A stretch of 25,035 bases of DNA from a virus: IMG/VR virus record IMGVR_UViG_3300025889_000886, positions 1 through 25,035 of that record; one strand, 5' to 3'. Positions 4,130 through 23,285 of this stretch are shown here, piece after piece. Every line of letters begins with the position of its first letter. Position 1 is the stretch's first letter. The notes beneath the pieces were generated by a model. The model ran no database searches. It had not been told where the DNA came from and worked only from the letters and a program-made list of their open reading frames with translations. The position numbers and the translations under genes were made by a program.

Positions 4130-4573
4130 TTACTTCTCCCATCCTTTGGCAATACCAGGAAACGCTTCTGCTACAACTTCTTTGCTGACCTTTGAATATT
4201 GCTCGGGAAGTTTCTTATCCTTGATAGCAATAAGAAGTCTTGCATCATCAGGATCAACACTTTCAAGCAGCTGAAAGAAGATACGTTCGCGTTCAATAGG
4301 CTTTGACTTATTTGTCGGCGTTTGAATAACATAGTCCAGCATTCGTGCACGATTATATAATGCACCCTGTAGATCATCAGCCTTGTTCGCAAAGTTGATT
4401 GCCTCGTCTGGAATGTTTCCTTCTGGTAATGCAAAGACGACTCGTGGGTCATATGCAAAACCTAGAACTTTCTTAAGAGCAGCAGATGAATTCTTCTGAA
4501 GTATAGCAACACGATCTGCCTTTTTGTTTTTTGAGGCTGCTTCTGCCAAAATTTCTGATATACTTTTAGTCAT
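4130..4573 (-). CDS. Conserved T4-like phage protein, probably DUF6433 (147 aa)
   Basis: The pattern MTKSISEIL, then AALKKVLGFAYDPRVVFALPEG, FQLLESVDPDDARLLIAIKDKKLP and a final EAFPGI is one I associate with the DUF6433 family of T4-like phages; the name is from memory. It is mainly helical and soluble with no membrane segment. The ATG overlaps the Rnh stop as ATGA, so the two are translationally coupled. It may work with replication or nuclease functions, but that is inference from position only. Confidence 0.75.
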   Translation of the reverse strand: MTKSISEILAEAASKNKKADRVAILQKNSSAALKKVLGFAYDPRVVFALPEGNIPDEAINFANKADDLQGALYNRARMLDYVIQTPTNKSKPIERERIFFQLLESVDPDDARLLIAIKDKKLPEQYSKVSKEVVAEAFPGIAKGWEK

Positions 4574-5439
4574 AGTTTCGTAAACTCCTGTGCACGATCT
4601 GTTAGATTTTTAAGTGATTTGGACATGAGATAGCCAAAGATATCTCTAGGTGGAGTAATACCAGCTTCCTCATATGATTCAAGGATTTTTTGTTTATGCT
4701 CTTCAGGAATAGTACTAAGATCAATCAGTTCTTTATTCCGATTATACTTTTCAAGCATACGTTCATCACAAAAATCTTCTGGACTCAATTCAGCCCATTC
4801 GTTGAGCTTCTTAGTTCGAATAGGTTTTTGCCTCTTTTCTGTGAGAAACACATCATCGTCTGATAGGAAGTTAGGAATGCCATCACCTCCATCACCTTTC
4901 ATGATGTGCATATGAAGAAAACGAGCAGGGTTTTGTTCACGAAGCATCTTCTTTTGAATTGGTGCGTACTGTTCTACGTTTCCATAGCGCTGCAATTGCA
5001 CGAAATCTTTATCACTTGAGATGATGACAATCTTTTCACTGTTTTTGGTGACAAACCAATCTTCACCTTTTTCTTGAACAAGGACAGCGATAATATCATC
5101 TGCTTCACATTGATCGACTTTGATAACACGCAACCCAAGATATTCAGACAGTTCACTTCGAATTTTATCGAGAATATCAAACAGCATGCTCCAATTTATA
5201 GTAGATGCTTCACGTGATTTTTTACGAGAGGCTTTATAGTATGGAAAGATTTCTTTACGCCAATAGTTCTGATCATCACAACAGATAATCATTTCTCCAT
5301 GGTCAGGAAATTTCTTTCGATAAAGAAGCAGACTCGACAAAACCATATGGCGAATGAGTCCTTCCTCCATGTCGGCTTCGTTTCGAATTTGCTGAAGAAT
5401 ATTTGATATACAAACTTGGTTAAAATCAACAAGAATCAT
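4570..5439 (-). CDS. rnh: T4-type RNase H / 5'-3' exonuclease (FEN-like)
   Basis: The 289-residue product has the acidic motifs of the T4 Rnh/flap endonuclease family in order: ILVDFNQ at the N-terminus, ICCDDQNYWRKE followed by YYKASRK, CEADDIIAVL, ISSDKDFVQLQ and KGDGGDGIPN. These Asp residues hold the two metal ions. In T4 the enzyme removes RNA primers and flaps at lagging-strand forks and is needed for Okazaki fragment joining. The frame can be read from GTG 5445, but ATG 5439 is preferred. The Shine-Dalgarno GAAGGAG (5470-5464) is separated from it by a 16-base perfect palindrome, described separately. It is followed directly by the DUF6433-like gene. Confidence 0.93.
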   Translation of the reverse strand: MILVDFNQVCISNILQQIRNEADMEEGLIRHMVLSSLLLYRKKFPDHGEMIICCDDQNYWRKEIFPYYKASRKKSREASTINWSMLFDILDKIRSELSEYLGLRVIKVDQCEADDIIAVLVQEKGEDWFVTKNSEKIVIISSDKDFVQLQRYGNVEQYAPIQKKMLREQNPARFLHMHIMKGDGGDGIPNFLSDDDVFLTEKRQKPIRTKKLNEWAELSPEDFCDERMLEKYNRNKELIDLSTIPEEHKQKILESYEEAGITPPRDIFGYLMSKSLKNLTDRAQEFTKL

Positions 5440-5470
5440 TTTCACATAGAGTTAATTAACTCTCTCCTTC
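5440..5470 (-). promoter_or_regulatory. Split ribosome-binding site: SD, hairpin, start of rnh
   Basis: Reading the minus strand: GAAGGAG (5470-5464), then the perfect palindrome AGAGTTAATTAACTCT (5463-5448; a 6-bp stem with an AATT loop), then eight bases, then ATG 5439. Without folding the SD is 24 bases away; with the hairpin folded the effective spacing is eight. T4 gene 25 is known to use a similar looped-out arrangement. The palindrome also contains the stop codon of the upstream gene. Confidence 0.5.
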
Positions 5471-5791
5471 TGGTTCATCTTCTAATGAATCAGCCATTGT
5501 CTTAAGGAATGGCATAAATGGATGGTCTTGTCCGACAACGTCATAAAGTGCAGCCTGCAAAAGATTACAAATAAGCTCATGATATTCAAGAAATTCTGGA
5601 TCTTCCCAGTCAATATCATTTGCTTCCATGTCTACAAGAATTTTACGTGCTACTGAGTCTGTAATAAGATGTGTAATTAAAACGGCCCGATGTGTATCTT
5701 CGACTATTTCAACACCTTCTTGTAACTCAGGAGAAGGTTCTTTGAGTTCAACTTTTTCTCTTGTTGGGAACCTTATAACGTTATTGCTCAA
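5456..5791 (-). CDS. Conserved phage protein of unknown function (111 aa), TTG start
   Basis: The frame is open to a TTG at 5845, but that lies upstream of a late promoter motif. The better start is the TTG at 5791, giving a protein that opens MSNNVIRFPTRE, a form seen in small T4-like phage proteins. The body is acidic and helical (about residues 40-111) with no membrane segment. The TTG overlaps the TGA of a five-codon ORF at 5788-5805 that has an excellent Shine-Dalgarno sequence, so translation probably begins by reinitiation. Alternatively a single-base error splits the true ATG from the frame. The gene is directly upstream of rnh. Confidence 0.65.
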   Translation of the reverse strand: MSNNVIRFPTREKVELKEPSPELQEGVEIVEDTHRAVLITHLITDSVARKILVDMEANDIDWEDPEFLEYHELICNLLQAALYDVVGQDHPFMPFLKTMADSLEDEPEGES

Positions 5792-5805
5792 CGACCAGTA
5801 TCCAT
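5788..5805 (-). other. Five-codon leader ORF (MDTGR) overlapping a TTG start
   Basis: AGGAGG lies five bases before ATG 5805, which opens a frame of only five codons ending in TGA at 5788. The stop overlaps the TTG start of the next gene as TTGA. It is the only ATG with an ideal ribosome-binding site in this leader, so it may load ribosomes for the downstream gene. Confidence 0.4.
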
Positions 5806-5826
5806 TTGATCCTCCTATTCTATACC

Positions 5827-5834
5827 TATTTATA
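5827..5834 (-). promoter_or_regulatory. T4-type late promoter motif, overlapping a sigma70-like pair
   Basis: TATAAATA lies on the minus strand in the context CTTATAAATAGG. A start point about six bases downstream would place AGGAGG near the 5' end of the mRNA. The same segment also reads as TTGACT (5845-5840), 17 bases, TAGAAT (5822-5817), so early and late recognition may overlap here. Confidence 0.55.
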
Positions 5835-19758: not shown

Positions 19759-21549
19759 TTATCCTTCACAAGCTAAACAGGTTTCTCCATCAGCAACCTG
19801 AGTAAGATCAATCTCTTGAATAATCTCACGTTCGATTCGTTTTGCAATTTTATCTGCTTTCCCAATCTTATCAGAACGACAATAATATAAAGTCTTCAAT
19901 CCAGATTTCCAAGCTAGGAAATGAACAGCATGAAGATACTTAATGTTAGTGTCTGGTCTAAAAAATAAATTAACAGACTGTGCTTGATCAATGAATTGCT
20001 GTCTATCAGCAGCATGTTCAATCAACCATCTTTGATCAATTTCCATGGCAGTCTTGAAGATATCTTTTTCTAAGTCAGAAAGAAACTTCAAATGCTGTAC
20101 AGATCCATCGTTTGAAATGATAGATGACCATATTTCATCATAATCTAATTTGGTATTTTCTGTACACTTGTTTTTAATCAGTTCGTCAAGATATTTGTTC
20201 TTTGCGAAATGAGAACCGGAAAGTGTATCCTGTCTGTAGGCGTTTGCTCTAAACGGTTCAATAGAAGGTGATGTATTTCCCATGATAATTGAGCTTGAAG
20301 CGTTCGGTGCAATTGCCATAAGATGAGAAAATCTTTTTCCGGTTCCGACTGCATCTGGAGCTTCTCCTCTCTTTTCAGCAAGAACTTCGTTAGCTTCATC
20401 GAGGTTGCTTCTGATGTGTTTGAAGATTCTCATATTGGCAGATTTAGCCATAGCGCTCTCAAAAGGAATTCCTTTCTTTTGAAGATATGCATGAAAACCA
20501 AGAGCACCGACACCAATTGATCTCTCACGCATGGCAGAAAACTTAGCACGACTAATAGTATCTGGTGCAAGATTGATAAAGACAGTCAGTACATTATCAA
20601 GCATTTCAGCTACATCAAGAATAAACTGAGGATTCTTAGACCAAGCATCATAGTGTTCAAGGTTCAAAGAAGACAGACAGCAAACAGCTGTTCGATCTTT
20701 TGATGTTGGAAGAATGATTTCTGAACACAAATTCGATTGATTAATTGTCAATCCTTGATCTTTAAGAAACTGTGGCAACCCGCGCCGGGATGTATCAATG
20801 AAATGCAAATATGGTTCTCCGGTCATCATTCGCAATTCGATGATCTTTTGCCAAAGACTACGAGCACTAAGTGTCTCTATTATTTCTTTAGAGTGCGGAT
20901 CAATCAATGGCCAACTGTCATCTGCGTTTGGATCTTTCATACAATTCTCAATCAGCTCCATAAAGTCATCTGTGATATTGACTCCATGATGAAGATTAAG
21001 ACAGCGAAGGTTCTGATCACCAGTCGGTTTACGCATTTCAAGAAACTGAATAATGTCTGGATGGCTAATATCTAAATAAACAGCGTATGATCCACGGCGA
21101 GTTTTACCCTGTCGAAAAGCAAGAGAACTTGCATCATACATTTTGAGATGAGTTGAAACACCAGTAGATTTATCGTCACTTGAACGAATACCAAAACCAA
21201 TACCAACACCGCCGCCGAGCATTGACAACCAATTTGTTTCACTAAGTGTATCAACCAATCCCTCTGCTGTATCATCAATATAGTTCAGATAACAGGAAAT
21301 AGGCAAGCCTTTTTTAGCACGGCCATATGATAGAATTGGAGTACTAAAAGACAACCAATGCTTTGAAGAATAATCATACAGCCTTTGTGCATGATCATCA
21401 TCTGTAGCAAATGTCTTTGATACAAATGCAAATCTTTCTTGAGGCGTCTGTTCGTCTTCTTTCATGTACGATTCTTTAAGACGCGTGATACCAGCCTCTC
21501 CAATCAATGCATCTCTGTTTGGCTCAAGTTTGATTCCTAGATATTCCAT
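19759..21549 (-). CDS. nrdA: Class I ribonucleotide reductase, large subunit (no ATP cone)
   Basis: At 596 residues it is clearly shorter than cellular NrdA (about 760) because the N-terminal ATP-cone domain is absent, so dATP inhibition is probably lost, as in other phage reductases. Active-site residues are present: Cys86 in PISCYL, the NLCSE motif with Asn273, Cys275 and Glu277, Cys290-291 in the AVCCLSSLNL segment, and the C-terminal redox pair CLAC (591-594). Substrate- and effector-loop segments GGGVGIGFG and GKTRRGSYAVYLD are intact. AAGGAG lies five bases before the ATG, which abuts the ThyX stop. It makes dNDPs for phage DNA together with NrdB. Confidence 0.95.
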   Translation of the reverse strand: MEYLGIKLEPNRDALIGEAGITRLKESYMKEDEQTPQERFAFVSKTFATDDDHAQRLYDYSSKHWLSFSTPILSYGRAKKGLPISCYLNYIDDTAEGLVDTLSETNWLSMLGGGVGIGFGIRSSDDKSTGVSTHLKMYDASSLAFRQGKTRRGSYAVYLDISHPDIIQFLEMRKPTGDQNLRCLNLHHGVNITDDFMELIENCMKDPNADDSWPLIDPHSKEIIETLSARSLWQKIIELRMMTGEPYLHFIDTSRRGLPQFLKDQGLTINQSNLCSEIILPTSKDRTAVCCLSSLNLEHYDAWSKNPQFILDVAEMLDNVLTVFINLAPDTISRAKFSAMRERSIGVGALGFHAYLQKKGIPFESAMAKSANMRIFKHIRSNLDEANEVLAEKRGEAPDAVGTGKRFSHLMAIAPNASSSIIMGNTSPSIEPFRANAYRQDTLSGSHFAKNKYLDELIKNKCTENTKLDYDEIWSSIISNDGSVQHLKFLSDLEKDIFKTAMEIDQRWLIEHAADRQQFIDQAQSVNLFFRPDTNIKYLHAVHFLAWKSGLKTLYYCRSDKIGKADKIAKRIEREIIQEIDLTQVADGETCLACEG

Positions 21550-22227
21550 TTAGTCTCCTTGTACGCAATAATTGATATATGGAAAGATCTTTCCAAGTTC
21601 ATCCGCAGTCATCAGTGCAATTTCTCGATGTTCTTTCTGAGTACCGTTTCCACTACGTAACTGAATGTAATGAATCCAACTACGAAGAGAACCTTTCATA
21701 TACATCTTACTCATGGTCATACCTTCAGGCAACACAGCCCGAGCTTGTTCTTTAGCAATACCATGCTCAATAGCCCATGCATATTTTCTCTTTGCAGACT
21801 CCACATGTTCTTCTTGAAGACGTTCCCATTCAGCAATAAGCTCATCATCACCATCTTCAAGTTCAATACTATTCTGACGATTTTTCTTGTCTTGCAAACG
21901 AGCTTCTCGAACCAAGAAATCCAACGACTTAGTTGGATCAGCATAACGTTGTGAGAACTCCTGAAAAGAAAAAGATCGGTGACGAAGAATCTGTCGACCG
22001 ATATCTCTTGTGGTAATAATTTCTAACGTTGCATCAACCATCTCAAAGACTGACCAATGCTGATTTTTGGCACAATAAGAGACAAGCTTTTCTGCCGTTT
22101 CGTTATTATGCTGATTAGAAGGATTTGAGACGCGAGCTGTATAAGCAATCATCTCAAGTGTATTCATTCCAGATAATTCATCACATGCTGGCTGTGTATA
22201 ACTTACCAGTTTCACGCTTGGTTGCAT
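21550..22227 (-). CDS. thyX: Flavin-dependent thymidylate synthase ThyX
   Basis: The ThyX signature RHR-x7-S is present as RHRSFSFQEFSQR (Arg82 to Ser92), in a protein of 225 residues, typical for the family. It makes dTMP from dUMP using FAD, NADPH and methylenetetrahydrofolate, without depending on a separate dihydrofolate reductase. MSKMYMKGSLRSWIHYIQLR near residue 170 is the second active-site helix. The start is buried 47 bases inside the primase gene with a poor SD, so translation is coupled. It is followed directly by nrdA, forming a nucleotide-supply unit. Confidence 0.95.
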   Translation of the reverse strand: MQPSVKLVSYTQPACDELSGMNTLEMIAYTARVSNPSNQHNNETAEKLVSYCAKNQHWSVFEMVDATLEIITTRDIGRQILRHRSFSFQEFSQRYADPTKSLDFLVREARLQDKKNRQNSIELEDGDDELIAEWERLQEEHVESAKRKYAWAIEHGIAKEQARAVLPEGMTMSKMYMKGSLRSWIHYIQLRSGNGTQKEHREIALMTADELGKIFPYINYCVQGD

Positions 22228-23257: not shown

Positions 23258-23285
23258 ATTATACTAATTACACTATAGTGTAAAC
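23258..23285 (-). promoter_or_regulatory. Candidate primase promoter with embedded palindrome
   Basis: TATAAT (23263-23258, minus strand) directly precedes the primase ATG. The -35 region is weak (GTTTAC at 16 bases or TTTACA at 15). Between them lies a perfect 16-bp palindrome, TTACACTATAGTGTAA (23268-23283), a strong candidate operator. A transcript starting here would have almost no leader. Confidence 0.45.

Follow-up and report, generated by a model that had tools for sequence, protein, structure and literature searches.

A lineage-specific candidate split ribosome-binding site before the RNase H gene of a T4-like phage

Neighboring genes in operons can be linked by termination-reinitiation coupling, in which a stop codon lies within about 20 nt of the next start, and the split ribosome-binding site of E. 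coli thrS has a role in regulation. In our literature searches, split or structure-accommodating ribosome-binding sites are represented by the T4 cases and by E. coli thrS (PMC3014915, PMC3936740). For T4 gene 25, the T4 review describes reporter and DMS evidence and retention of the site in close T-even phages together with its absence from distant relatives; it also gives the shortening of the spacer as 27 to 11 nt at gene 25 and 22 to 5 nt at gene 38, counted differently from the values that we derive below (PMC3014915). Among the literature titles and abstract openings listed, which cover few subscription journals, none mentions such a site before rnh or in any T4-like phage from the sea. 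Here we describe a junction that is a real sequence feature and, judged from its sequence, a credible candidate split ribosome-binding site. It lies in a marine T4-like virus record of 25,035 bases (the whole stretch analyzed, hereafter the window), where the open reading frames that we treat as genes follow one another closely on the minus strand.

Read directly from the sequence, the junction runs from 5470 to 5437 on the minus strand in the order GAAGGAG-AGAGTTAATTAACTCT-ATGTGAAA-ATG. This bears out the earlier note on this DNA, which had described GAAGGAG, a perfect 16-base palindrome, eight further nucleotides, and the ATG, and had placed the palindrome across the stop codon of the upstream gene (TAA 5458-5456 indeed falls inside 5463-5448). 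The features are as follows:

4570-5439, minus strand: rnh, encoding a T4 RNase H-like 5'-3' exonuclease of 289 aa counted from the conserved ATG (Pfam, PHROG, and alignment)
5456-5791, minus strand: upstream gene, a homologue by phmmer of the small gene preceding rnh in other T4-like phages
5470-5464, minus strand: GAAGGAG, the sole strong Shine-Dalgarno (SD) sequence near rnh, within the last codons of the upstream gene
5463-5448, minus strand: perfect 16-base palindrome AGAGTTAATTAACTCT, a predicted RNA hairpin of 6 bp with an AAUU loop
5458-5456, minus strand: TAA stop codon of the upstream gene, within the hairpin and 16 nt ahead of the rnh ATG
5447-5440, minus strand: 8-nt link ATGTGAAA from hairpin to ATG, containing ATGTGA and the alternative GTG at 5445
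5439-5437, minus strand: ATG of rnh, by sequence reading

Within the hairpin, the U of the stop codon is the base that closes the stem and its AA belongs to the loop. The 3' arm of the palindrome is non-coding, intergenic sequence, so that the complementarity of the hairpin is not imposed by a protein sequence. Immediately 3' of the hairpin is a start-stop ATGTGA (5447-5442, minus strand), which overlaps the alternative GTG start of rnh.

The rnh product carries the domains PF02739 (2.2e-17) and PF09293 (6.5e-10) and belongs to PHROG 107; its best match, among the 60 listed of 1668 matching phage records, is from a cyanophage (47.6% identity). ATG 5439 is the likely start, because the opening MIL[VL]D.NQ is common to all five aligned rnh proteins, and most of the junctions listed open likewise; GTG 5445, two codons upstream, could conceivably serve instead and would add two residues. 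The upstream reading frame is open from TTG 5845, with homologues suggesting a start near TTG 5791, and its product gave no Pfam or PHROG match at 0.001 and no tblastn match at 0.01 in phage records. Ahead of TTG 5791 we find, in order, TATAAATA (5834-5827, minus strand), which we take to be T4-late-promoter-like, then AGGAGG (5816-5811), and then ATG 5805, which opens a five-codon reading frame (MDTGR) whose TGA overlaps TTG 5791 (region 5788-5834, minus strand); the upstream gene thus possibly starts at a leader-coupled TTG.

GAAGGAG is a strong SD that stands too far from the start in linear sequence, with AAGGAG 24 nt from the ATG, and no rival strong SD occurs at normal spacing: the far site GAAGGAGA forms an SD duplex of -8.8 kcal/mol versus -3.2 kcal/mol for the best near site, 2-10 nt from the ATG, both calculated with an anti-SD that may not be that of the host. 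Looping out of the predicted hairpin would reduce the spacing to 8 nt, within the working range. Taken alone, the 16-mer folds into 6 bp with an AAUU loop at -3.9 kcal/mol, versus a mean of -0.43 for shuffles; the corresponding z is -1.06 in a 40-nt context and -0.10 in a 91-nt context. With short flanks (15/15 and 30/12) the five outer pairs have predicted pairing probabilities of 0.88-0.99 and the innermost pair one of 0.74-0.76. The outer pairs fall to 0.56-0.89 when the flanks are 30/30 or 60/60 and to about 0.1 when they are 100 nt long; at all flanks the innermost pair is the less probable. With the same flanks, the T4 gene 25 pairs have probabilities of 0.48-0.88 overall (0.57-0.88 in the short contexts), and those of gene 38 are 1.0. 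By these predictions the rnh stem is plausible, weaker than both T4 precedents, and dependent on context.

The frequency with which such an arrangement would arise by chance depends on how it is defined. A first version of our detector found rnh along with 6 of 1492 pseudo-starts and missed both T4 sites (genes 25 and 38), for which reason it was loosened to admit trimmed stems and weaker SDs. In its loose form it matches 2 of the 41 starts in the window, 5439 and 24471, the latter having a good near SD; only 5439 scores as strong. Strong matches occur in 58 of 8200 shuffled upstream sequences (21 as strong as rnh), in 20 of 2673 window pseudo-starts, and in 22 of 3000 shuffles of the upstream sequence of rnh itself (8 as strong as rnh), and the shuffle rates give an expectation of about 0.1-0.3 such starts per 41. 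A strict detector was modeled on the way genes 25 and 38 are laid out; its hairpin cut-off just admits rnh, and its thresholds were partly chosen post hoc so that rnh passes. Of the 41 window starts it accepts rnh alone; it accepts none of the 2673 pseudo-starts, and 11 of the 41000 shuffled upstream sequences, an expectation of 0.011 per 41 starts. Applied to T4, the strict detector picks out genes 25 and 38, both proven split sites, alone among 103 starts (one of them an ATT) drawn from three stretches, two of which were picked to contain these genes, and 1 of 20600 T4 shuffles. When only the 24-nt spacer is shuffled and the SD kept, the strict rule is satisfied by 220 of 20000 shuffles (1.1%) and a looser rule by 410 of 20000; at gene 25 the strict count is 702 of 20000. 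AAGGAG is found not only at starts, with 6 occurrences on the coding strand and 7 on the other, and no Rfam family reaches its gathering score within the window. Allowing for selection, we judge the rnh arrangement unusual but not overwhelmingly so, at roughly the 1-10% level. The earlier note's comparison with T4 gene 25 proved apt, in that one detector recovers genes 25, 38, and rnh with similar geometry: in all three the SD adjoins the hairpin and the looped spacing is 5-8 nt, the same script giving a change from 26 to 8 nt for gene 25 and from 21 to 7 nt for gene 38.

Our preferred reading, held tentatively, is that of a lineage-specific candidate split ribosome-binding site, probably acting together with termination-coupled initiation. 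On this reading a 30S subunit would pair with GAAGGAG in the last codons of the upstream gene, and the palindrome would form a looped-out 6-bp hairpin, which would put ATG 5439 roughly 8 nt from the SD rather than 24; the split site would work jointly with ribosomes that terminate at the upstream stop, 16 nt from the ATG. The layout, the predicted fold, the lack of any other strong SD, and a geometry like that of genes 25 and 38 are what we observe or predict directly; from these we infer formation of the hairpin in the mRNA, its use by ribosomes, and their cooperation with terminating ribosomes. The suggestion that the hairpin acts as a translation switch for RNase H found no support. A ribosome terminating at 5456 would presumably cover and melt the hairpin, standing 16 nt from the ATG, and because it stands so close, coupling alone would suffice for translation of rnh; the hairpin would therefore matter only for fresh initiation in the intervals between upstream ribosomes. 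Were the arrangement functional, it would place a split ribosome-binding site beyond the T-even phages, and it would suggest both that phages reinvent spacer looping at gene junctions to start translation and that start-site predictors reliant on spacing overlook such starts.

The candidate split site appears to be confined to this phage population. The only other contig found to carry the junction (L001, with L009 and L164 being the same contig) is 99.8% identical in DNA over 6.4 kb and thus represents the same population; at that identity it is uninformative on covariation, the earlier note having proposed a comparison of related phages for stem-preserving changes. Relatives lend the arrangement no support. 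A phmmer search against the upstream reading frames of 143 loci (a redundant set, four of them this phage) yielded, at E values of 0.003 or better, 20 further entries; these correspond to 16 distinct junctions at which the upstream gene is a homologue. The SD-hairpin-ATG arrangement occurs in 0 of these 16, which makes it look lineage-specific; some other hairpin lies within 60 nt before the ATG in 5. By analogy with T4 gene 25, its absence from distant junctions would still be compatible with a lineage-specific site. The earlier note had also taken unpaired relatives with a normal SD close to the ATG as counting against the idea, and the two halves of that pattern fare differently: all 16 junctions lack the arrangement, but a normal near SD (-5 kcal/mol or better) is present in only 3, the other 13 having near sites of -2.7 to -4.8 kcal/mol.

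Across 88 rnh starts, not deduplicated, the sole match was L001, the same phage (the start of L089 is offset by one residue). GGAG situated 18-30 nt before rnh was found in 86 stretches, 80 of which were taken as loci, giving 46 distinct junctions; L145 and L167, having a stop inside, are not rnh. A hairpin is present in 6 of the 45 full-length GGAG junctions, versus 1.0 expected from spacer shuffles, the six being by listing this phage, L126/L134, and four of an oxygenase type (described below). Across the loci collected, the arrangement occurs at 2 of 1363 first-ATG starts, counted without redundancy, versus 0.45 expected; the two are the rnh site and the oxygenase type. In an earlier set of 966 starts there were 30 orphan distant SDs, with a hairpin of -3.0 kcal/mol or below in 2 (0.5 expected), of -3.9 in 1 (0.3 expected, the rnh site having apparently been lost by rounding), and of -5 in 0 (0.1 expected). 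A class-wide enrichment of the arrangement is not convincing.

A serious competitor, if in our view a somewhat doubtful one, is termination-coupled initiation with a fortuitous hairpin, in which ribosomes arriving at 5456 restart with the aid of GAAGGAG at ATG 5439, 16 nt on, or at GTG 5445, 10 nt on, and the hairpin plays no part. Both distances fall within the range for coupling, and the close packing of genes on one strand, the 16-nt gap between stop and start, and the loose chance estimates of 0.1-0.3 per window all favor it, as do the short gaps of 2-9 nt in 3 of the 16 homologous junctions (near SDs of -3.8 to -6.8 kcal/mol). What coupling leaves unexplained is the T4-like folding of the spacer, reproduced in 1.1% of spacer shuffles.

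We consider it unlikely that the hairpin and the distant SD are both products of chance, with rnh starting from the weak near GTGA or with no SD at all. The near-site duplex of -3.2 kcal/mol accords with such a start, and many relatives seem to start in this way; given that 13 of the 16 homologous junctions are equally weak, a near site of this strength is ordinary for rnh, and the gene, to judge from these sequences, may often dispense with a strong SD. The far SD, however, is much stronger (-8.8) and adjoins the hairpin exactly. The weak-site junctions also differ in setting: gaps are long (27-68 nt) in 13 of the 16, with near SDs of -2.7 to -4.8 kcal/mol in 12 and -8.5 in one, so that 12 of the 13 weak sites stand behind long gaps, which by eye often hold promoter-like sequence, unlike the 16-nt gap here.

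A look-alike occurs before rnh in another clade (L131/L152, L142, L119, and L162), where GAAGGAG is followed by a 7-bp stem with a looped spacing of 7-10 nt. We rejected these oxygenase-rnh junctions as independent support, since the SD and stem coincide with the conserved codons for RRSMSFNAH, a motif that four aligned proteins share without change and that varies little across the 78 loci read; it lies at the end of a gene with 24-31% identity to phage 2OG-Fe(II) oxygenases among the matches listed. Where rnh follows, 10 of 12 distinct 30-nt segments have the stem and 10 of 12 the SD; where it does not, the figures are 14 of 18 and 10 of 18, a segment that occurs in both contexts being counted once. 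A cluster test on 78 usable loci of 80 (L235 and L236 dropped; 23 clusters, 32 cluster-states) gave no significant link to a downstream start at a looped spacing of 5-12 (p = 0.46 for the SD and p = 0.11 for the stem); by eye, a more generous limit on spacing would improve the result, but such a choice is post hoc and we make no claim from it. SD-hairpin layouts can be coding by-products, and the oxygenase one looks like such a case; this explanation is inapplicable to the rnh site of the window, where the 3' arm is intergenic. In L181-L260, from marine phages, the RRSMSFNAH codons often give an SD-like GGAG and a stem just before whatever gene follows. It strikes us as quite improbable that split sites evolved repeatedly before rnh in marine phages of T4 type, as an intercistronic hairpin here and elsewhere from the C-terminal RRSMSFNAH codons of the oxygenase-like gene, which would then also provide SD and hairpin for the following gene.

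We consider it very unlikely that the palindrome acts at the level of DNA, for instance as a site bound by a protein, and is positioned only incidentally at a start codon: the window does hold 3 perfect 16-base palindromes versus 0.44 expected, one of them (23268-23283) intergenic and upstream of another start, but the three share no common motif by eye and a consensus scan gives no promoter-like site over the rnh palindrome. The intergenic one, TTACACTATAGTGTAA (minus strand), stops 10 nt short of ATG 23257, which opens a reading frame that is primase-like by eye, in a 109-nt intergenic stretch with a promoter-like TATAAT beside that ATG and a weak GGG-type SD only. The third, TGGAAAGATCTTTCCA (21580-21595, minus strand), lies within the end of a reading frame at 21550-22227 (thyX-like by eye), upstream of a reading frame starting at 21549.

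Termination-reinitiation coupling in operons shares with the rnh junction a stop near the start and an SD in the end of the upstream gene, and, unlike a split site, requires no hairpin between SD and start. The E. coli thrS site resembles rnh in that ribosome contacts are parted by structured mRNA (PMC3936740); it differs in having larger structures between single-stranded regions, with no SD-hairpin-ATG unit of this size. T4 gene 38 is closer, with AAGGAG followed almost at once by a hairpin and a spacing given as 22 shortened to 5 nt in the T4 review (PMC3014915), although its UUCG hairpin is far stronger (-7.9 to -8.5 kcal/mol) and spans no stop codon. T4 gene 25, at the gene 26-25 junction, has a stem of 7 bp and -6.4 kcal/mol versus 6 bp and -3.9 kcal/mol at rnh, and is backed by reporters, DMS, and T-even conservation (PMC3014915), whereas the rnh hairpin is a prediction from sequence. 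The two nevertheless share an SD adjoining a short hairpin, 8 nt from hairpin-looped SD to ATG by our own count, the placement of SD and hairpin in the end of the upstream gene, and the lack of a strong near SD.
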